Source: Propionibacterium sp.
GTDB taxonomy: Bacteria > Actinomycetota > Actinomycetes > Propionibacteriales > Propionibacteriaceae
Length of the DNA: 64,000 nt
Assembly: GCA_012839035.1 (NCBI GenBank)
Contig: DUOB01000151.1
Span: 1 to 64,000, forward strand
Direction of reading: 5' to 3'
The notes beneath the pieces are model-generated. The model was not told the origin of the DNA, made no database searches, and saw only the letters and a list, made by a program, of their open reading frames with translations. This document shows positions 6,996 through 17,411 of this stretch, piece after piece (position 1 is the first letter of the stretch; the number at the start of each line of letters is the position of its first letter). The position numbers were made by a program, and so were the translations under genes.

Positions 6996-8321
6996 GTGCT
7001 TCGAATTCTTGATCTGCGAGGCCGGCTCGCTGCCGGCGAAACCCTGGACTATCAGCGCATCGTGCCGCGTGCGCCCTTCGATGTCGCGGCGGCGATGACC
7101 GCGGTCGCTCCCGTGTGCGACGCGATCGCCGAGCGAGGTGAGGAGGCCCTCCGGGAGTTTTCCGAGAAGTTCGACGGAGTTGTCCCCGAGAGCTTCCGGG
7201 TGCCCGCCGAGGCGCTCAAGGAGGCGGAGGCGCAGCTGGACCCCGAGGTGCGCGCCGCGTTCGAGGTGGCGATTGAGCGTCGTCACAAGGTTGCCGTGGC
7301 GGAGCGCGGCCAGGAAGCCATTGAGGTCGAGGTCGCCCCGGGGGCCCGCATCATCCACAAGACGATCCCGGTCAACCGGGTCGGTCTCTATGTGCCCGGT
7401 GGGTTGGCCCCACTGTCCTCCAGCGTGATCCACAACGTCGTGCCCGCCCAGGCGGCCGGGGTCCGTTCGATCGCCGTCACGTCGCCGCCCCAGGCCGAAT
7501 TCGGCGGCCTGCCGCACCCCAACATTCTCGGGCTCTGCAGCCTGCTGGGCATCGATGAGGTGTACGCCGTGGGCGGTGCCCAAGCGATCGCCATGTTCGC
7601 CCATGGCGTGGAGGGCCTCTGCAAGCCCGCCGATCTGGTGACCGGCCCCGGCAACATTTATGTCGTCGCGGCCAAACGGCTGTTGAAGGGCCGGATCGGT
7701 ATCGACTCCGAGGCCGGGCCGACGGAGATCGCGATCCTTGCCGACGACTCCGCGAACGCTGCCCACATCGCGGCCGACCTGATCTCCCAGGCCGAGCACG
7801 ACCCCTTGGCCGGGTCGGTGCTCGTCACCGACTCGCCCGAACTCGCCGATGCCGTGGAGGCCGCCCTCGAGCCACAGATCGGCCGCACGCGTCATCAGGA
7901 GCGCATCCGCACCGCGCTGACCGGGCAGCAGTCGGGGATCGTGCTGGTCGACGACATGGAGCAGGGCCTCGCCGTGGTGGACGCCTACGGTGCGGAACAC
8001 CTCGAGGTGCACACGCGCGATCAGTTCGAGCTCGCCCAGCGGGTGACGAATGCGGGCGCCATCTTCATCGGCACTTATGCGCCGGTCTCCCTCGGTGACT
8101 ATTGCGCCGGATCGACCCACGTCCTGCCGACGGCGGGCGCCGCGGCCCACTCGTCGGGACTGACCGTGCAGTCCTTCCTGCGCCACGTCCACCTCATCGA
8201 CTATTCGGCCGAGGCGCTGGCCGAGGTCCGGCACACGGTCGAGACCTTCGCCGAGGCGGAGGATCTGCCGGCGCACGGTGCGGCCGTCACCGTCCGTTTC
8301 GCCGCCGACGCGGATGCCTGA
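6996..8321 (+). CDS. hisD: Histidinol dehydrogenase
   Basis: Catalyses the last two steps of histidine synthesis, L-histidinol to L-histidine, with NAD and zinc. 441 residues, normal for the family. Diagnostic stretches include [34 protein letters not shown] and DSEAGPTE, plus the zinc- and substrate-binding region [14 protein letters not shown] near the C-terminus. The start is a GTG directly downstream of a -10 box, so the message looks leaderless. It is the first gene of hisD-hisC-hisB-hisH; the hisC ATG lies inside its last codons. Confidence 0.97.
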
Positions 8322-9423
8322 GCCGATGGCCATCACCTTGGCGGATCTGCCGCTGCGCCCCGAGCTGGTGGGGGAGGAGCCCTACGGGGCTCCGCAGCTC
8401 GACGTGCCGGTCCTGCTCAACGTCAACGAGAACCCGTACGCCCCGAGTGACCGGGTGCGCGCCGAGATCGCGGACGCGGTGGCCGAGGCAGCCACCGTCA
8501 TGAACCGCTATCCGGACCGGGAAGCGGCGGCGCTGCGTACGCGGCTCGCGGCCTATCTCGGCCACGGGCTCACAGCCGACCACATCTGGGCGGCCAACGG
8601 GTCGAACGAAGTCATGACCCACGTCCTGCAGGCGTTCGCCGGTCCGGACCGCAGCCTGCTCACGTTTGCGCCGACCTATTCGATGTATCCGGAGTACGCC
8701 CGCAACACCCACACCCGGTTCCTGGTCGAGCCGCGGTCCGCGGACTTCACCATCGATCCCGAGGTCGCGGTGGCCGCCATCGCCGAACATCAGCCGGATG
8801 TGGTCGTGGTGACCACACCGAACAATCCGACCGGCACGGTCACCGGCCTCGACACGATCAGGGCCTTGCTCGAGGCCGCGCCCGGGATCGTGGTGGTCGA
8901 TGAGGCCTACCAGGAATTCGTCACCCCCGGTGTGCCGAGCGCGCTGGAGCTGCTGGCTGACCATCCGCGGCTCGTGGTGACCCGGACGATGAGCAAGGCC
9001 TTCGCGTTCGCCGGGGGCCGGCTCGGGTATCTCGCCGCGGCGCCCGCGATCGTCGATGCCTGCCGGATCGTACGCCTGCCCTATCACCTGTCCGGCATCA
9101 CCCAGGCGGTCGCCTCGGTGGCGCTGGACAATGCGCCGGAGATGATGGCGCATGTCGCCGAGCTGCGGGCGGCCAGGGACGATCTGGTCGACTGGCTGGT
9201 CGGCATGGGCCTGCCGGTCGTGCCGTCCGAGGCCAACTTCGTGCTGTTCGGCGCTTTCCCGGACCGGCATGCCGTCTGGTCACAGCTGCTGGCGGATGGC
9301 GTGCTGATCCGCGAGACCGGACCCGCGGGCATGCTGCGGGTCTCCATGGGAACGCCGACGGAGATGGCGGCGTTCAAGACTGCCCTGATGCGCGTTCTGG
9401 ACAACGAGGAGACGACCCGATGA
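8314..9423 (+). CDS. hisC: Histidinol-phosphate aminotransferase
   Basis: PLP-dependent aminotransferase that converts imidazole-acetol phosphate to histidinol phosphate. 369 residues from the ATG at 8314; an ATG at 8326 ([11 protein letters not shown]) is an equally plausible start because neither has a clear ribosome site. Family features are [22 protein letters not shown], the DEAYQEF motif, the PLP lysine in [12 protein letters not shown] and RLGY. The gene overlaps hisD by 8 bp and hisB by an ATGA, so translation is probably coupled throughout the operon. Confidence 0.96.
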
Positions 9424-10061
9424 CCGACACCGCCCATCGCACGGCCACGGCCGAACGCAAGACCTCGGAGTCCGGTGTCCGGGTCCGGGTCAATCTGGAC
9501 GGCTCGGGGGAGTCCTCGGTCAGCACCGGAGTCGGGTTCTTCGATCACATGCTCACGTCGCTGGCCCGGCATTCGCTGATCGATCTCGACATCGAGGCGA
9601 GCGGGGACGTCTGGATCGACGCGCACCACGTCGTGGAGGACACCGCGATCGTGCTCGGCCAGGCGCTGCGGGAGGCGTTCGGTGACAAGCGCGGCATCCG
9701 CCGGTTCGGGGACGCGCTCGTGCCGCTGGACGAGGCGCTCGCCCAGTGCGTGGTGGACATCGCCGGCCGCCCGTATTGCGTGCACACCGGCGAGCCCGAG
9801 GCCCAGGCCTATGCCCTGATCGGCGGCGGCCCCTGGCCCGATGGCAGACCCGGCACGCCCTATGTCGGGTCGATGACCCGGCACATCGTCGAGACGCTCG
9901 CCTTCAACGCCGGCATCTGCGTCCATCTGACGCTGCTCGCCGGCCGGGACCCGCACCACATCGTGGAGGCCCAGATCAAGGCCCTGGCCCGGGCGCTGAG
10001 GATCGCCGTCGAGCCCGACGGCCGCATCGCCGGTGTGCCCAGCACGAAGGGCGCCCTGTGA
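9420..10061 (+). CDS. hisB: Imidazoleglycerol-phosphate dehydratase
   Basis: Manganese-dependent enzyme that dehydrates imidazoleglycerol phosphate to imidazole-acetol phosphate. 213 residues, the monofunctional form without the phosphatase domain found in enterics. The metal-binding His/Glu repeats are clear: [26 protein letters not shown] and DPHHIVEA. The ATG overlaps the hisC stop (ATGA) and the end overlaps the hisH GTG start (GTGA). Assignment is certain. Confidence 0.97.
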
Positions 10062-10678
10062 GCGTGAGCCGTCGTGTGGTCGTGCTCGACTACGGCTCCG
10101 GAAATCTCAGATCGGCATGCCGTGCCCTCGAACGGGCGGGTGCGGACGTGGTGCTGTCCTCCGACACGGCCGACACCGGCCGGGCGGACGGTCTGGTCGT
10201 GCCAGGGGTCGGCGCCTATGCCGCATGCATGGCGGGACTGCGCGGGATCGGCGGTGACGACGCCATCCGTGCCCGGGTGGCCGCCGGCCGACCCGTGCTG
10301 GGGATCTGTGTGGGTTTCCAGGTCCTTTTCGAGGAGGGCCATGAACACGGTGTGCGGTCCGCCGGCTGCGGGGTGCTGCCCGGCAGAGTTGATCGGCTCA
10401 CCGCCCGCCGGCTGCCCCACATGGGCTGGAACACGGTGGCTGCAGCGGAGGGGTCACCGCTCTTCGGCGGAGTGACGGATCAGCGGTTCTATTTCGTGCA
10501 CTCCTATGGCGTTCACGCCACGGCCGCGGATCGGACCACCTGGTGTGAACACGAGGGCGACCGTTTCGTCGCGGCGGTCGAACAGGGCTGCGTGAGCGGG
10601 ACCCAGTTCCATCCGGAGAAGTCGGGCGGCGCCGGGGGACGGTTGCTCCGGAACTGGGTCGCGACGCTCCGCGGCTGA
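10058..10678 (+). CDS. hisH: Imidazole glycerol phosphate synthase, glutaminase subunit
   Basis: Class I glutamine amidotransferase that supplies ammonia to HisF. 206 residues from the GTG at 10058, which overlaps the hisB stop; another GTG lies two codons on. The catalytic cysteine is in [13 protein letters not shown], and the His-Glu pair is in TQFHPEKSG near the C-terminus. [10 protein letters not shown] near the N-terminus is typical. In most actinobacteria hisA (priA) and hisF follow at once. Here the next plus-strand gene of the pathway, hisA, is almost 6 kb away, and hisF is not in the window. Confidence 0.96.
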
Positions 10679-10680
10679 GT

Positions 10681-10709
10681 GTCCCCGTGCGTCACCCTCC
10701 GCCGGGGAC
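10681..10709. terminator. Possible bidirectional terminator after hisH
   Basis: GTCCCCG at 10681-10687 can pair with CGGGGAC at 10703-10709 across a 15-nt loop. It lies at the convergence of hisH and the minus-strand polysialyltransferase-like gene and overlaps the last codons of the latter. There is no U-tract, as is common in high-GC actinobacteria. Confidence 0.4.
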
Positions 10710-12038
10710 TCCGCGGATGGGTCCCATGAGGCGCTCCTCGAGTCGGCGCTCGATCGCGTACGCCGACCGGGCGGCCCGGCGCAAGGTGGGCGCCAAGCGG
10801 GTCTTGAGGGTCTGCCGGCCACCCGGCAGCCCGAGCTCGCCGAGCCGGACGGGCGGGAAGAACCGGGCCTCGGCCGCGCCGTGCTCCCACAGCCAGTCAC
10901 CCGCGGCTGCGCGCCGATGAGAGAGGACTTCCGGCTGCATCACGAACCCGACCGCCTCGATCAACCGGGCCACCTCCGGCACGCTCAACCGGGCGGGGGC
11001 CTCCGGGCCCGCGACGAGTGAATCGATGATGACCAGCGGGATGCGGTTGCTGTTGGGGAACGGTTTGAGCGCGGTGAGCAGTTGTTCGGTGCCGACCCGG
11101 ACCACCGGCAGCCCATAGAGAGCCTGGGCGGTCATCAGCGCGGTGGAGAAACACCCGACCACCAGACCGATGTCCGCACGGTCGAACAGGGTCTCGGCGA
11201 GGACCGGAGCGGTGAACACCTCGACGTCCGCGTTCAGTTCGGCGGCTCGCTCCAGCATGGGTCCGGCCAGCTCGGTCGGTGCCGTCGGGTGGGGCTTGAA
11301 CACGATCCGGTCGAAGCCCCGGCCGACGGCAGCCTCGAGCATCTGCGTGTGCAGGGCTTCCTCCTGCGCGTTGGTCATCAGGCCGAGCGGTGACAGATAC
11401 TGGCCGAGCAGAAGAGCCGTCCGGCCGGTCTGCCGCGGCAGCTCGGCGGTCGCGCCCAGCCCGGCCAGCACGGCCAGGAAGGGCTCGCTGGGGATGATCT
11501 GCCGCGTCACCCCGAACTCCTCGAGCAGCAGCGGCGCCAGCCCCGGCACCAGATCGAGGTGGAGCAGCCGTTCGATGCGGGAACCCACCTCGGAGAGGAT
11601 CTTGTTGCGGGTCGGCCCATAGCTCATGAGCCCATCGGCATAGACGTCAATCGAGGCCTGCGGGAACGACCACGCGAGGGATTGGGCGGGGGAGACCTGG
11701 ATCGATTCCACCACCAGGTGCACAGGTTCGTCGCACAGGTCCCACTGCAGCCGGAAATAGCGTTCCCACAACGGCATCTCCGCCTCCGACGGCAGCCAGG
11801 CCGACGGGTGCAGGGGCGCGATGGCCGCGTTGAAGGACACGACCTGATCGAACGGCTCCGCCAACGGGGTGAAGGCCGGGCTCTCGGCCAGGTCGGCCAC
11901 CGCCTCCGGGACCGCGGCGTTGTTGCTCACCACGAGCACCCGCTTGCCGGCGTCCGGGAAGAGACCTGCGTCCAGGGCGGCTTTGAGTGTCGCCAGACCG
12001 AACAGCGTCGATACCTCGAACAGGTGGGTGCGGGTCAT
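10692..12038 (-). CDS. Alpha-2,8-polysialyltransferase-family protein
   Basis: A 448-residue protein with the layout of bacterial polysialyltransferase-like (GT38/PF07388-type) enzymes. They transfer sialic-acid-like sugars from a CMP donor to surface glycans. The three motifs expected of bacterial sialyltransferases are present: an acidic-glycine motif DVYADGLMSY (about residues 131-140), the HP motif FKPHP (about 247-251) and a Ser/Thr motif GCFSTA (about 295-300). There is no signal peptide, so it should act in the cytoplasm or at the membrane face. It is the last gene of a three-gene minus-strand operon, overlapping the upstream glycosyltransferase by 4 bp. The acceptor, sugar and linkage cannot be deduced, so polysialic acid itself is not implied. 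Confidence 0.75.
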   Translation of the reverse strand: MTRTHLFEVSTLFGLATLKAALDAGLFPDAGKRVLVVSNNAAVPEAVADLAESPAFTPLAEPFDQVVSFNAAIAPLHPSAWLPSEAEMPLWERYFRLQWDLCDEPVHLVVESIQVSPAQSLAWSFPQASIDVYADGLMSYGPTRNKILSEVGSRIERLLHLDLVPGLAPLLLEEFGVTRQIIPSEPFLAVLAGLGATAELPRQTGRTALLLGQYLSPLGLMTNAQEEALHTQMLEAAVGRGFDRIVFKPHPTAPTELAGPMLERAAELNADVEVFTAPVLAETLFDRADIGLVVGCFSTALMTAQALYGLPVVRVGTEQLLTALKPFPNSNRIPLVIIDSLVAGPEAPARLSVPEVARLIEAVGFVMQPEVLSHRRAAAGDWLWEHGAAEARFFPPVRLGELGLPGGRQTLKTRLAPTLRRAARSAYAIERRLEERLMGPIRGVPGGG

Positions 12039-13021
12039 CGGGTTCTCCGTTCACGTTCGGCAGTGTCGGCCATCAATCGGGTGAGCCGGGCCCGGCGGTC
12101 GGGGGTCAACTGCGCCAGGGTGTCATCGAGCAGTGGCTGCGGGGCGCCGGCGAGCGAGCGCCCGAGCAGGAGGCGAAAGGTTCGTCGTACCTCCGGAGCG
12201 AACCGGTCCATCCGCCCCAGGTGGTGCAGCGTCAGCTCACACCACCGCCGCACGGCCTTCGGGAGGAACCGGTCCGCAGCCGGGTCCGCGGACACGATCC
12301 GGATCACCTGCTCCATGGCCGCGACGAAATCCAGTTGGGTCGAATCGGCCAGCCGGGTCAACGAACCGGGCTGATCCCGGTGGTAATGCACCCCCGCCAG
12401 CGCCGGCACCGAGAAGGACTCCGCACCCAAGTGCAGTTGCCAGATCCACGGCCGGTCCTCCGCCGTGCGCAGCTCATCCGGGAACCGCAGCGTTCCGGCC
12501 TCCGCGAGACTGCGGTGATAGGCGCCGGCCCAGGCGTACGGATAATCCACCGACGTCCGCTGACCCACCGGCAGGATCGCCTCGCGCGGTGCGGCGATGC
12601 GTCCGTCCCGGCACCCGGCCGGCACCCTCCGCAGCACGCGGGTGCGGCCGGTCACTTCGATGTGGTCGGTTCTGATCATGGGTACGCCGAGTCCGGCGAT
12701 CGCGTCCAGCAGGGCGGGAAAATAGTCGCGGGCGACCGTGTCGTCACCGTCGAAGAACGTCAGGTAGTCCGTCTCGACCAGCTCCACACCCGCATTGCGC
12801 GCCCCGGAGAGCCCGACGTTCTGGTCGAGGCGGTGCAGCCGAGCGCGGGGAAGGCGGGGGAGTGCGGCGGCGATCACGTCGGCGGTGGCATCGGGCGAGG
12901 CATCGTCGATGAACAACAACTCGATCCGCTCATCGATGGCGCGGGTCAGGCTTGCGAGGGTGAGGGGGAGCCGGTCAGCGAGCCGATAGCAGGGGATGAC
13001 GACGGTCATGGTCGGGGTCAT
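12035..13021 (-). CDS. Family 2 glycosyltransferase
   Basis: A 328-residue GT-A-fold glycosyltransferase. The N-terminus reads VVIPCYRLADRLP, followed by IDDASPDAT, GLSGARNAG and the metal-binding FFDGDDTV (DxD-type, near residue 92). No membrane helix is visible. It is a paralogue of the upstream gene: shared blocks include the DDASPD motif, the DGDD motif, RTDHI.(V/C)TGR, the ELRTAEDRP.IW block and the HY(H/R) D..GSLT block. ATGA overlaps join it to both neighbours. It probably adds a sugar to the same glycan as the polysialyltransferase-like enzyme. Start at 13021; an internal ATG at 13009 is also possible. Confidence 0.85.
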   Translation of the reverse strand: MTPTMTVVIPCYRLADRLPLTLASLTRAIDERIELLFIDDASPDATADVIAAALPRLPRARLHRLDQNVGLSGARNAGVELVETDYLTFFDGDDTVARDYFPALLDAIAGLGVPMIRTDHIEVTGRTRVLRRVPAGCRDGRIAAPREAILPVGQRTSVDYPYAWAGAYHRSLAEAGTLRFPDELRTAEDRPWIWQLHLGAESFSVPALAGVHYHRDQPGSLTRLADSTQLDFVAAMEQVIRIVSADPAADRFLPKAVRRWCELTLHHLGRMDRFAPEVRRTFRLLLGRSLAGAPQPLLDDTLAQLTPDRRARLTRLMADTAERERRTR

Positions 13022-14025
13022 CGGGGGCCTCTGGGCAGGGGTGCGAGGGAGAGTACGCGGGCTGCCCGGCGCAGCGACTCAACCGCCTGGCGCCGGCTCT
13101 CGGGCATGGCCTTGATCACTGCGGCAAGCTCGTCGGGATCGGCGGTGTCGAGCAGACCCGCGGCCTCCACGGTGAACCGGGCCCGCAGGGCCGGGGTGAA
13201 CCGGGACCGGTGCTGCCAGTGCCACGCGAACAGGCCCGCCCAGGTGCGCAGCACCTTGGTCCGGAACCGATCCGCCTCCGGGTCCGCGGCGACGATCTCC
13301 CCGACCTGCCGCATGGATTCGGTCACGGCGAGCTGCCGGACGTCGCCGGTCTGGGTGAGCGATCCCGCGACGTCCTGCCGGTAGTGCACCCCCACCGTGC
13401 GGGCAATGGTGAATTGCGGCACCGACAGATGCAGTCGCCAGATCGACGGCCGGTCCTCGGCGGTGCGCAACTCCGGGGGATAGCAGACATATCCGGCCGT
13501 CGCGAGGCGCCGGTGATAGACACCCGACCAGGCGTGGGCGAAATCCACGGAACTGGTGCGCGCCGAGAGGATGGATTCCCGGGGCACACCGACCCGGCCG
13601 GCCCGGTTGACGTCGGGGATCCGGACGAGGACACGCTGGCGTCCGGTGCACTGGATGTGATCGGTGCGGACCCAGTCGACGCCCAACCCCAGCACCTCGT
13701 CGAGCAGCGCCGGATAGTAGCCCTTGGACACCCAGTCATCACCGTCCAGGAAGGTGAACCAATCGGTGTCGAGTTCGGCCAGGGCCGCCATCCGGGCACC
13801 GGCGAGTCCCTGGTTCTCCGGCAGGATCAGGACCCGCGCACCGGGGAGGGAGCGAGCGGCCCGGTGCAGTCGTTCCGGGGTGTCATCGGGCGAGGCATCG
13901 TCCACGAGAAGAAACGTGATGCGTGGATCGCTCGACCAGCGGAGACTGGCAAGAGCATCCTCGGCCAGGGGGCCCAACCGGAAGAAGTTCACCACCACGG
14001 TGAGCAGCGGGTGTGCAGTGGCCAT
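13018..14025 (-). CDS. Family 2 glycosyltransferase
   Basis: A 335-residue glycosyltransferase, paralogous to the next gene in the operon. GT-A motifs are LLVDDASPDDT, GLAGARMAA and TFLDGDDWV, with a conserved ELRTAEDRPSIW block further on. The start is put at the ATG at 14025 (MATAHPLLTVVVNFF) and not at upstream in-frame codons, because the -10-like hexamer TAGGGT ends exactly 7 nt before it, leaving no room for a ribosome site or a longer protein. It is the first gene of the minus-strand arm of the glycan cassette, divergent from the neuB-like gene. Confidence 0.85.
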   Translation of the reverse strand: MATAHPLLTVVVNFFRLGPLAEDALASLRWSSDPRITFLLVDDASPDDTPERLHRAARSLPGARVLILPENQGLAGARMAALAELDTDWFTFLDGDDWVSKGYYPALLDEVLGLGVDWVRTDHIQCTGRQRVLVRIPDVNRAGRVGVPRESILSARTSSVDFAHAWSGVYHRRLATAGYVCYPPELRTAEDRPSIWRLHLSVPQFTIARTVGVHYRQDVAGSLTQTGDVRQLAVTESMRQVGEIVAADPEADRFRTKVLRTWAGLFAWHWQHRSRFTPALRARFTVEAAGLLDTADPDELAAVIKAMPESRRQAVESLRRAARVLSLAPLPRGPR

Positions 14026-14032
14026 GGACGCC

Positions 14033-14038
14033 ACCCTA
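14033..14038 (-). promoter_or_regulatory. -10 element (TAGGGT) for a leaderless glycosyltransferase mRNA
   Basis: Read on the minus strand, TAGGGT is followed by 7 nt and the ATG at 14025. It fits the TANNNT pattern shared by other leaderless genes here and would drive the minus-strand operon of the glycan cassette. Confidence 0.5.
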
Positions 14039-14077
14039 GTGGGGGTCCTCCGCCGGAGGATCACGGTGGGCTACGTG

Positions 14078-14083
14078 TAGCCT
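14078..14083 (+). promoter_or_regulatory. Possible -10 element (TAGCCT) before the neuB-like gene
   Basis: TAGCCT lies 32 bp before the ATG at 14116, with a purine-rich ribosome site (GAGAGGGAAG) in between. Together with the minus-strand element at 14033-14038 it forms a compact divergent promoter region of about 90 bp that would co-regulate both arms of the cassette. Confidence 0.4.
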
Positions 14084-14115
14084 TTCGAGGCGAGCGGTCG
14101 ATGGGAGAGGGAAGC

Positions 14116-15051
14116 ATGAGCACAGGTGAGAGCAAGGTCCGGATGTTCGGCGAACGCCCCGTCGGGCCGGGCCACCCCGTCTATGTGACGGGTGAGATCG
14201 GCATCAACCACAACGGCGACCTGGACAACGCCCTGCGGCTCATCGACGCTGCCGTGCATGCGGGCGCGGACGCCGTGAAATTCCAGAAGCGCACCCCGGA
14301 GATCGCCACCCCGCGCGACCAGTGGGACATCGAGCGAGACACGCCCTGGGGCCGTATGCCCTATATCGACTATCGGCACCGGGTCGAGTTCGGTGTGGAG
14401 GAATACAGCCGCATCGACGAATACTGCAAGGCCCACAACATCGCGTGGTTCGCGTCACCGTGGGACACCGAGGCCGTTGACTTCCTCGAACAGTTCGATC
14501 TCCCCGCCCACAAGGTCGCCTCCGCATCGTTGACCGACGATGACCTCCTGCGCACGCTGCGGGCCACCGGCCGCACCGTGATCCTCTCCACGGGCATGTC
14601 GACCCCCGCCCAGATCCGGCATGCCGTCGAGGTGCTCGGCAGCGAACAGATCCTGATGTGTCACTCCACGAGCACCTATCCGGCCAAGCCGGAGGAGCTC
14701 AACCTGCGCATGATCAACACACTCAACGCCGAATACCCCAACGTGCCGATTGGTTATTCGGGTCACGAGACCGGTCTGCAGACGACGCTCGCCGCTGTGG
14801 CATTGGGCGCGGTCTTCATCGAACGCCATATCACTCTGGACCGCGCCATGTGGGGTTCGGACCAGGCCGCGTCCGTCGAACCGGGCGGCCTGGAGCGCCT
14901 CGTCCGCGACATCCGCGTGATCGAGAAGGCGCTGGGCGACGGGGTCAAGAAGGTCTATGACTCCGAGCTCGGGCCGATGAAGAAGCTCCGCCGGGTCCCG
15001 GGCGTGATCGCCGAGGGCGGCGACGACCACATCAACACCCCGCGCGTCTGA
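14116..15051 (+). CDS. NeuB-type N-acylneuraminate (nonulosonate) synthase
   Basis: The family condenses phosphoenolpyruvate with a six-carbon amino sugar to make a nine-carbon nonulosonic acid such as sialic or legionaminic acid. 311 residues. Motifs: GEIGINHNGD (about residue 26), DAVKFQKRTP, the FASPWD block, STGMSTPAQI, CHSTSTYPA, GYSGHETG and GAVFIERHITLD followed by GSDQAAS. The TIM-barrel is complete, but the protein stops soon after VPGVIAEGGDD and lacks the usual C-terminal SAF (antifreeze-like) domain of full NeuB proteins of about 340-360 residues. Good start: GAGAGGGAAG before the ATG. The sugar made is unknown; no CMP-nonulosonate synthetase or epimerase gene is in the window. 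Confidence 0.85.
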   Translation: MSTGESKVRMFGERPVGPGHPVYVTGEIGINHNGDLDNALRLIDAAVHAGADAVKFQKRTPEIATPRDQWDIERDTPWGRMPYIDYRHRVEFGVEEYSRIDEYCKAHNIAWFASPWDTEAVDFLEQFDLPAHKVASASLTDDDLLRTLRATGRTVILSTGMSTPAQIRHAVEVLGSEQILMCHSTSTYPAKPEELNLRMINTLNAEYPNVPIGYSGHETGLQTTLAAVALGAVFIERHITLDRAMWGSDQAASVEPGGLERLVRDIRVIEKALGDGVKKVYDSELGPMKKLRRVPGVIAEGGDDHINTPRV

Positions 15052-15054
15052 GCC

Positions 15055-16011
15055 GTGGGCGGCACCCTGGGCTTCGTCGAGAGTCCGGCCCAGCTGCTGA
15101 ACGTCGTGGAGTGGGGCGCCGCCACCGCGGCGGACATTCACATCGTCGTGCTGGGCCCCGGGGATCCGGGGACGAGGTTCCAACTTCACCGGCTGTCGGA
15201 GCTCGTACGCCGGGATGGCTTCCGGGTCACGTGGGCCGAGGTGCGCGGCGGGGCGCGGTCAGCAGGCGTGCTGGCGCGCTGGACCCGGCAGGTGCGGGTC
15301 GCGGACACGGTGGTCCTCGGTGATCCGTACGCCGCCTTCTCCCACCTCCTGATCTCCGCAGCCCCACCGGATCTGCGTCTCGTCGTCGTCGACGACGGCA
15401 CCGCCACCCTGCGCTATGCGGAGCAGTGGGCCGATGGCACCGAGCTGCGGCGGTGGCATGTGGCCCGGCGCACGAGCGCCCACCGGATCGTCGGCCACCG
15501 CGCCGAACGGCTCCTCGGCCGACGCAGTGATCGGGTCGAGCTGTTCAGCGCCATGCCCCTGGACACCGAGCTGCCGGTCACCCGCAACGCCTATGCCTGG
15601 GTCCGGTCCCGTTTCGGCCCGCCGCGGCTCCTCGACGGAACCGACCTGATGGGCAGCTCGCTGGTGGAGACCGGCGTGGTGGCCCCGGAGGCGTACCTCC
15701 GGGGGATCGAACGCCTCATCGCCGACCGGGCGGTGGCCCGCTATCTGCCCCACCGCCACGAGAGCCGGGAGAAACTGGTCGCGATCGAACGTCTGGGTGT
15801 ACGCATCGTGCGTCCCGACCTGCCGATGGAGGTCTTCGCCCGCAAGGGCCCGCTCGGGCACTGCATCCTGTCGTTCCCCTCGACCGTGCTGCACACGCTG
15901 CCCCTGGTCCTGGGCGACGTGCCGGTCACGATCGAGGCACTGGCCGTCGATGATGACTGGTTTGTCGCTGATGCCCGCGCCGAGGAACGGGCCTTCATCC
16001 ACGGGATCTGA
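15055..16011 (+). CDS. Putative sialyltransferase-like protein
   Basis: A 318-residue protein without signal peptide or membrane helix, starting at a GTG 3 bp after the neuB-like stop and so surely in the same operon. I do not recognise a named family with certainty, but it carries the order of motifs expected in bacterial sialyltransferases: FVESPAQLLN at the N-terminus, VVVDDGTATL (acidic-acidic-Gly, about residues 110-119), YLPHRHES (HP-like, about 230-237) and SFPSTVLH (Ser/Thr motif, about 273-280). With a NeuB-type synthase just upstream and a polysialyltransferase-like gene nearby, a CMP-nonulosonate-dependent transferase is the most economical reading. This is inference from motifs and context. 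Confidence 0.55.
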   Translation: MGGTLGFVESPAQLLNVVEWGAATAADIHIVVLGPGDPGTRFQLHRLSELVRRDGFRVTWAEVRGGARSAGVLARWTRQVRVADTVVLGDPYAAFSHLLISAAPPDLRLVVVDDGTATLRYAEQWADGTELRRWHVARRTSAHRIVGHRAERLLGRRSDRVELFSAMPLDTELPVTRNAYAWVRSRFGPPRLLDGTDLMGSSLVETGVVAPEAYLRGIERLIADRAVARYLPHRHESREKLVAIERLGVRIVRPDLPMEVFARKGPLGHCILSFPSTVLHTLPLVLGDVPVTIEALAVDDDWFVADARAEERAFIHGI

Positions 16012-16058
16012 GGACTGGCAGGCTGGGCTCCAGGATGCCGAACACGAGGAGGAATCCA

Positions 16059-16547
16059 GTGCCCGAGCCCACGATCCAGCAGTTCTATGACGATGATCTC
16101 GCCCAGTGCTTCGGTTGCGGAGTCGCCAATGCGGCCGGCCATCACTTCGGCACGCGCTGGCTGCCCGACGGCCGCACCGAGACCCGGTTCACGCCGAAGC
16201 CGGAGCACACCGCCATTCGGGGCTTCGTGTATGGCGGGATCGTCGCCAGTCTCATCGACTGCGCCGGCACCGGCAGCGCGGCGCTCGCCGCCGGCCGCGA
16301 ACGGGGCGTGGACGCCGCCACCCAGGGGGCGTTGCGTTTCGTGACCGGCACCCTTGAGGTGCGGTATGAGCACCCCACCCCCATGGGGCCCGTGCTCGTC
16401 TGCACCGGGACCATCACCGAGGTGCGCGGCCGCAAGGTCACGGTCGAACTCGTCGTTTCCGCCGACGGTGTGGACGTTGCGCGTGGGCGGGTGATCGCGC
16501 TGGAGGCTCCCGGAACGATGAGTGTTCCCCAGCCCACCGACTCGTAG
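16059..16547 (+). CDS. PaaI-type hotdog-fold thioesterase
   Basis: A 162-residue hotdog protein. FGCGVANAAGHHFG and RGFVYGGIVASLIDCAG are typical of PaaI/YiiD-like acyl-CoA thioesterases, the Asp in the second block being the usual catalytic position. The start is set at the GTG at 16059, preceded by GAGGAGG with 6-nt spacing, and not the upstream in-frame ATG at 16035, which has no ribosome site. It sits between the glycan cassette and hisA on the same strand. It may belong to neither, and could instead be linked to the acyl-group genes further downstream. Substrate unknown. Confidence 0.8.
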   Translation: MPEPTIQQFYDDDLAQCFGCGVANAAGHHFGTRWLPDGRTETRFTPKPEHTAIRGFVYGGIVASLIDCAGTGSAALAAGRERGVDAATQGALRFVTGTLEVRYEHPTPMGPVLVCTGTITEVRGRKVTVELVVSADGVDVARGRVIALEAPGTMSVPQPTDS

Positions 16548-16580
16548 GGGAATGCACCGGGGCCGTGTCGGTGACTTCGA

Positions 16581-16586
16581 TAACAT
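16581..16586 (+). promoter_or_regulatory. -10 element (TAACAT) of a leaderless hisA promoter
   Basis: TAACAT ends 6 nt before the GTG start at 16593, with no ribosome site between. It gives hisA its own promoter, needed because the glycan cassette separates it from hisDCBH. Confidence 0.55.
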
Positions 16587-16592
16587 GCCGGA

Positions 16593-17411
16593 GTGGATTC
16601 CTTGACGTTGCTGCCGGCGGTTGATGTGAAGGGCGGCCAGGCCGTCCAACTGGTCCAAGGGGTGGATGGCACCGAGAAGGTGTTCGGCGACCCCATCAAG
16701 GCGGCACGCCGCTGGCAGGACGGCGGTGCGGATTGGCTGCACGTGGTCGATCTGGATGCCGCCTTCGGCCGGGACAACAACCTTGACGTGATCCGTCGCC
16801 TGATCGAGGAGACCGACCTGCAGGTCGAACTCTCCGGCGGCATCCGCGACGATGCCAGCCTCGAGCGGGCCCTCGCCACCGGCTGCACCCGGGTCAACAT
16901 CGGGACCGCCGCGCTCGAGAACCCCGAATGGTGCGAGCAGATCATCGCCCGACACCGGGACCGGATCGCGATCAGCCTGGACGTCAAGGGGGACAAGCTC
17001 GCCGCACGGGGCTGGACCTCCGAGGGCGGCAATGTGTTCGAAACCCTGGCGCGCCTCGATGCCGCGGGCTGTCGTCGTTATGTCGTCACGGACGTGGCGT
17101 CGGACGGCATGCTGACCGGGCCCAACTATGAGGTGCTGGGCGCGATTTGTGCGCGCACCGAGAGCCCCGTCGTGGCTTCGGGGGGAATCTCCACGCTCGA
17201 GGACCTGCGTCGCTTGCGGGGCCTTGTGCCGATCGGCATCGAAGGTGCGATTGTGGGTACGGCGCTCTATGTGGGCAACTTCACCCTGGCCGAGGCGCTC
17301 GCGGTGGCGCGCGGCGACGACAGCGCCGCCCGGAACGAGGATCCGCACGGTGCCGACAGGAACGACCAGGACCAGACCGATGAGGACGAGAAGGATGAGG
17401 ATGCCAGGTGA
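16593..17411 (+). CDS. hisA: Phosphoribosyl isomerase (HisA/PriA)
   Basis: TIM-barrel isomerase of the fourth step of histidine synthesis (ProFAR to PRFAR). In actinobacteria the homologue PriA often also does the TrpF reaction of tryptophan synthesis; whether this one does cannot be told without a genome check for trpF. Catalytic Asp in [10 protein letters not shown] (about residue 10), [10 protein letters not shown], the second Asp region in [15 protein letters not shown], and ASGGIST. The barrel ends near residue 242. The remaining about 27 residues are strongly acidic and Asp/Glu/Gln-rich ([14 protein letters not shown] at the end), unlike the normal family. The stop overlaps the next gene by GTGA. 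Confidence 0.93.

Follow-up and report, generated by a model that had tools for sequence, protein, structure and literature searches.

The 318-residue protein encoded at positions 15055 to 16011 of the window (the whole 64,000-nucleotide stretch of Propionibacterium sp. DNA analysed here), henceforth P1, is likely to be an inverting GT-B glycosyltransferase that uses a CMP-nonulosonate, as judged from its residues and a structural model. The fold, the conserved residues and the gene neighbourhood of P1 were computed in the present study. The fold, the catalytic plan and the type of locus are known ones, and what is new is a family for which the searched libraries contain no model, together with its distinct motif variant. 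It is possible, at slightly less than even chances, that P1 represents a sequence family new among glycosyltransferases, in which HP takes the form His-Arg, and is at the same time a bacterial Kdn transferase building phosphate-free teichulosonic acid in Streptomyces and relatives.

The neighbouring NeuB synthase noticed in the initial annotation is borne out by a strong domain match, and the two genes stand beside three further glycosyltransferase-like genes on the opposite strand:

15055..16011, + strand: P1, GTG start, 318 aa; predicted GT-B CMP-nonulosonate (Kdn/sialic-acid-type) transferase
14116..15051, + strand: NeuB-family nonulosonate synthase, 311 aa; PF03102 over 14128-15051, E = 1.1e-79
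13018..14064, - strand: GT2 glycosyltransferase b; PF00535, E = 5.4e-20
12035..13021, - strand: GT2 glycosyltransferase a; PF00535, E = 6.9e-25
10692..12038, - strand: PF07388 polysialyltransferase-like GT-B protein (polyST), 448 aa; E = 3.5e-29, best PDB structures 5wcn/5wc6

The stop codon of NeuB lies three bases upstream of the P1 start on the same strand, and from this adjacency we infer that the two genes are co-transcribed. NeuB likely starts at ATG 14116, the mechanical open reading frame (13210-15051) beginning far upstream, and only the NeuB domain was matched in the 311-residue product, with no SAF domain. Its score against TIGR03569 (247.8 bits) is below the cut-off of 399.65, so its sugar was left without assignment. 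The cassette is split in this genome, with polyST, the two GT2 genes, NeuB and P1 on contig C114 and the genes for a NeuA-HAD fusion and a DUF6716 protein on contig C39. The NeuA-HAD fusion, which adjoins the DUF6716 gene, is the only PF02348 cytidylyltransferase match in the genome. On C39 (L159:4747-8095) these two genes, the DUF6716 product being a putative glycosyltransferase, are convergent and overlap by about 20 bases. The polyST-GT2-GT2/NeuB-P1-thioesterase block of the window (6996-17411) sits between hisH and hisA and interrupts the run of histidine genes, and the same his flanks are present in relatives (loci L028, L030, L031, L033, L034, L036 and L038).

Linkage to NeuB extends well beyond the window. 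NeuB was found together with P1 in 113/114 loci, a set that includes some places more than once (at least L079/L029, L080/L026 and L108/L062), on the same strand in 113/113 and at most 400 bp away in 108/113. The sole locus without NeuB belongs to genome G022, in which NeuB is on another contig. Among 146 related genomes, all 22 with P1 also have NeuB, and 64 have a NeuB-family match without P1. The main streptomycete arrangement places polyST and GT2 on one strand and DUF6716, NeuA-HAD, NeuB and P1 on the other, and the cassette domains read in S. coelicoflavus (L097) identify the same genes.

The 22 P1 genomes are what remains of 23 matches obtained by searching the 146 related genomes with P1; the match in L023 (G127) was dropped as a protoporphyrinogen-oxidase-like reading frame on inspection by eye. 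When 396 genomes of the phylum were searched with a P1 profile, 14 had matches, namely the window's own genome, nine Streptomyces, two members of family f11, one of family f32 and one weak row (G374; L057/L076), the last rejected with an E-value of 0.002 over 47 positions and a tblastn search of its 17 kb that detected zero cassette genes. Scanning named genomes confirmed at least 445 P1-related stretches. The best 80 of these are almost all from Streptomyces, the other taxa among them being Kitasatospora, one Streptomycetaceae strain, Granulicoccus phenolivorans and Enemella dayhoffiae. As a single-sequence query over genome contigs, P1 returned 14 stretches of which 0 were confirmed.

P1 itself has no family that can be named, as the initial annotation had remarked of the open reading frame. 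It matched zero Pfam or NCBIfam models at E-values up to 10 and zero PDB sequences by phmmer, and PDB profile searches with three P1 alignments (A1, A2 and A3) gave chance-level rows or none. PF07922 (GT52) matched one of the 22 P1 members at an E-value of 0.0019 and not the P1 of the window, and PF07388 was not among the families matched by the 22 members or by the window protein (E up to 10). PF07922 matched 0/396 phylum genomes, a count that is no measure of absence since the control genomes also gave 0. The teichulosonic-acid type of locus, for its part, is already known in Streptomyces.

An alignment of 34 P1 members, 28-75% identical to the window protein (L068, with a long N-terminal extension, and L075, the same gene as L021, were excluded from A2), locates the putative active site as follows:

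15079..15093, + strand: ESPAQ, residues 9-13; E9, S10, P11 and Q13 invariant in 34/34 relatives
15391..15399, + strand: DDG, residues 113-115; 34/34, Asp114 the predicted general base
15742..15765, + strand: YLPHRHES, residues 230-237; His233 the predicted donor-phosphate binder
15829..15831, + strand: Glu259; 34/34, predicted to bind ribose
15880..15885, + strand: Ser276-Thr277 of FPST (residues 274-277); predicted alpha-phosphate-binding S/T motif

DDG, YLPHRHES and FPST occur in the order first described. The HP-like motif is so in part: the His is invariant at that position, but the residue after it is Arg in 34/34 members, making the motif His-Arg and not His-Pro. Y230, H233 and R234 are present in all 34 members and E236 in 33, and where GT38 has a Lys two positions ahead of the His, the P1 family has L, F or Y (n = 34). 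Glu259 lies 26-27 residues past the His and 17 ahead of the Ser in every member; position 276 is S in 34/34, and position 277 is T in 28 members and S in the other 6.

Read loosely, the order of the motifs carries little weight by itself. The loose DDG/HP-like/S-T pattern occurred in 222/5000 shuffles of P1 and in 7/88 window open reading frames of at least 250 aa. A tight pattern with polysialyltransferase-like spacing occurred in 3/5000 shuffles and in 1/88 reading frames, which is P1, in a test that is partly post hoc because its limits were set after the family had been inspected. Conservation of DDG, H, E and S across 34/34 relatives is stronger evidence than motif order. Of the 318 columns, 22 are invariant, including E9, S10, P11, Q13, D113, D114, G115, H233, R234, P257, E259 and S276, and the chance expectation of at least five of six motif positions falling among them is approximately 6e-6.

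An AlphaFold2 model of P1, built with 22 relatives, has a mean pLDDT of 92.3 and a pTM of 0.90, and confidently predicts a GT-B-type fold of two Rossmann-like domains, which matches GT38 and GT80 structures over its full length. The first reading was to be given up if the fold was not GT-B or if a clear match to an unrelated family appeared, and we found neither. With Foldseek the first PDB structure was the CDP-bound GT38 enzyme 5wcn (E = 2.9e-8, TMq 0.53), the second the GT52 enzyme NST, 2yk4 (E = 8.6e-6, TMq 0.38), and nonhydrolysing UDP-GlcNAc 2-epimerases came next, from an E-value of 1.2e-4. VIA-align placed GT38 clearly first, with 5wcn at Z 16.8 (5.2 Å over 294 residues) and 5wc6 at Z 16.7, followed by an epimerase (Z 13.2) and a GT80 sialyltransferase (Z 13.0); 2yk4 was outside the best 50 rows, which does not exclude it. 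As a positive control, the model of the neighbouring PF07388 protein polyST (pLDDT 90.6) also found the Mannheimia enzyme first, with a Foldseek E-value of 5.7e-8 and a Z of 18.5. Comparing the scores of both proteins, P1 fits the solved polysialyltransferase approximately as well as the recognized member does. A comparison of the P1 and polyST family profiles was not significant (probability 0.5%, E = 0.12), with DDG, H, E and S/T in register, so the link to sialyltransferases rests on fold and active site and not on sequence statistics. Together with the invariant catalytic motifs and the linkage to NeuB, the structural matches support the sialyltransferase-like class originally suggested.

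In the Mannheimia polysialyltransferase (PMC5517516), Glu153 is the base, within a D/E-D/E-G motif of bacterial polysialyltransferases, His291 and Ser339/Thr340 bind phosphate, Glu323 binds ribose, and Gln41 and Gln44 aid the base. The GT38 enzyme of Mannheimia haemolytica (5WCN/5WC6) and P1 share base, His and S/T, with Glu259 of P1 as the putative ribose Glu between His and S/T, in one order and at similar spacing, and on the alignment ranges of the structures (model from 1, chain from 32) Q13 of P1 probably corresponds to Gln44. Spacings from base to His, His to Glu and Glu to Ser are 138/32/16 in the Mannheimia enzyme and 118-134/26-27/17 in the P1 family, and the interval from His to Ser is 43-44 in P1 (34/34) against 48 in both the neighbouring polyST and the Mannheimia enzyme. 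P1 differs from GT38 in being shorter (318 aa), in having 12% identity with no match in sequence searches, in its His-Arg in place of His-Pro and in its missing Lys at two residues before the His. Given the absence of a literal HP and of that Lys, the cytosine contacts of P1 must differ from those of GT38. Neisseria NST (2YK4; GT52, PF07922) is the second Foldseek match, yet with a TMq of only 0.38, and the GT80 sialyltransferases (2ZWI, 2ILV) have the GT-B fold of P1 at Z 12-13, weaker than GT38 and with no sequence match.

These differences allow another reading, which we consider unlikely, in which P1, still a glycosyltransferase for this polymer, uses a different nucleotide donor, and polyST or the DUF6716 protein is the true nonulosonate transferase. 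Within the cassette it is polyST that Pfam recognizes as the polysialyltransferase, and its KPHP and GCFST are canonical, whereas P1 is without HP and the pre-His Lys; the polymer, moreover, includes other sugars, Gal and GlcNAc (PMC7831098). Against this, PF07388 is missing altogether from nine of the 22 P1 genomes, all of which have NeuB, and P1 keeps DDG, H, E and S/T. In two loci the polyST-like protein (L034:10900-12093 in G032 and L038:4652-5851 in G009) has lost both DG and HP and P1 retains all of its motifs, although both genomes have a further PF07388 match elsewhere.

A NeuC/WecB-type UDP-GlcNAc 2-epimerase supplying ManNAc to NeuB would be metabolically sensible at this position, shares the GT-B fold with P1 (Z 12-13) and, in Escherichia coli WecB (L161:2134-3264), has an HRRES that resembles the HR(R/K/H)ES of P1 and occupies the equivalent place in the fold. 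This loop likeness could reflect either shared ancestry or convergence. We regard an epimerase as very improbable nonetheless: the interval from His to Ser is 77 in WecB against 43-44 in the P1 family, P1 has FPST-V where WecB has SGGxQEE, and its DDG stands where WecB has VEAG with no acidic pair. In addition, hhalign of P1 and WecB covered only 18 columns (E = 0.63), PF02350 matched neither P1 nor its members at Pfam E-values up to 10, and the top structures for P1 are sialyltransferases. Similarly remote is a noncatalytic GT-B subunit that scaffolds or regulates polyST or the GT2 enzymes, a role in keeping with several glycosyltransferase-like proteins per cassette and with no biochemical activity of a P1 member being reported in the literature covered, but one that would not need putative catalytic residues invariant in 34/34 members down to 28% identity.

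As a nonulosonate transferase, P1 would serve a wall polymer like that of streptomycetes. In S. coelicolor, SCO4873-SCO4882 is the PhoP-controlled teichulosonic-acid region, induced under phosphate limitation (PMC13011467, which cites Ostash et al. 2014). SCO4878 is a glycosyltransferase and SCO4880 a transferase (PMC2267785), and SCO4881 is NeuB (PMC2367054), contrary to PMC8269224, in which sialic acid synthase is paired with SCO4880. The same PMC8269224 gives the SCO4882 product as hypothetical. We prefer SCO4881 as NeuB because gene order agrees with PMC2367054, and P1 then corresponds to SCO4882, which adjoins it. By gene order the streptomycete cassette corresponds to SCO4877-SCO4882, S. 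coelicolor itself lying outside the loci fetched. Compared with SCO4873-SCO4882, the genome of the window has its genes on two contigs, an extra GT2 and a location inside the his region.

Streptomyces is described as having teichulosonic acid, which contains Kdn and galactose, for its chief wall glycopolymer (PMC7831098, PMC11481543). By analogy with Streptomyces, Kdn, carried as CMP-Kdn, would be a likelier donor sugar than Neu5Ac or legionaminate, the two first put forward as CMP-sugars. Our literature search returned no paper joining polysialyltransferase, Streptomyces and glycosyltransferase; at the level of titles and abstracts, the papers returned for Kdn transferases concern fish, plant and human systems, and the match for CMP-Kdn with Streptomyces concerns an alga.

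Putting fold, residues and neighbourhood together, we infer the donor, acceptor, catalysis and polymer as follows. NeuB would make the nonulosonate, probably as a 9-phosphate, an intermediate suggested by the HAD domain on NeuA and typical of known Kdn pathways. NeuA-HAD, encoded on C39, would strip the phosphate and form the CMP-nonulosonate that P1 uses. P1 would then transfer the nonulosonic acid, most likely Kdn, to an acceptor sugar during assembly of a teichulosonic-acid-like wall polymer. In the predicted active site His233, Ser276 and Thr277 would grip the donor phosphate and stabilize the departing CMP, Glu259 would grip the ribose, and Gln13 would orient Asp114 of DDG for deprotonation of the acceptor hydroxyl. 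The product would be expected to be an alpha-linked nonulosonate. An alpha-linked product is expected of an inverting enzyme with a CMP-beta donor. The teichulosonic acid of Promicromonospora contains alpha-Kdn (PMC6801904), which is what such an enzyme would give.

For the SCO4882-type gene, this prediction specifies an enzymatic function down to catalytic residues and donor, which makes the step directly testable, and P1, which very many streptomycetes possess, becomes a candidate enzyme family for the synthesis of Kdn glycosides. The family also has more distant representatives. Nonomuraea gerenzanensis has a distant P1 copy, near which each of the five remaining cassette genes has a match, and one Streptomyces genome (G496; L069 and L071) has the complete cassette twice, the P1 of the second copy being more diverged and 41% identical to that of the window.
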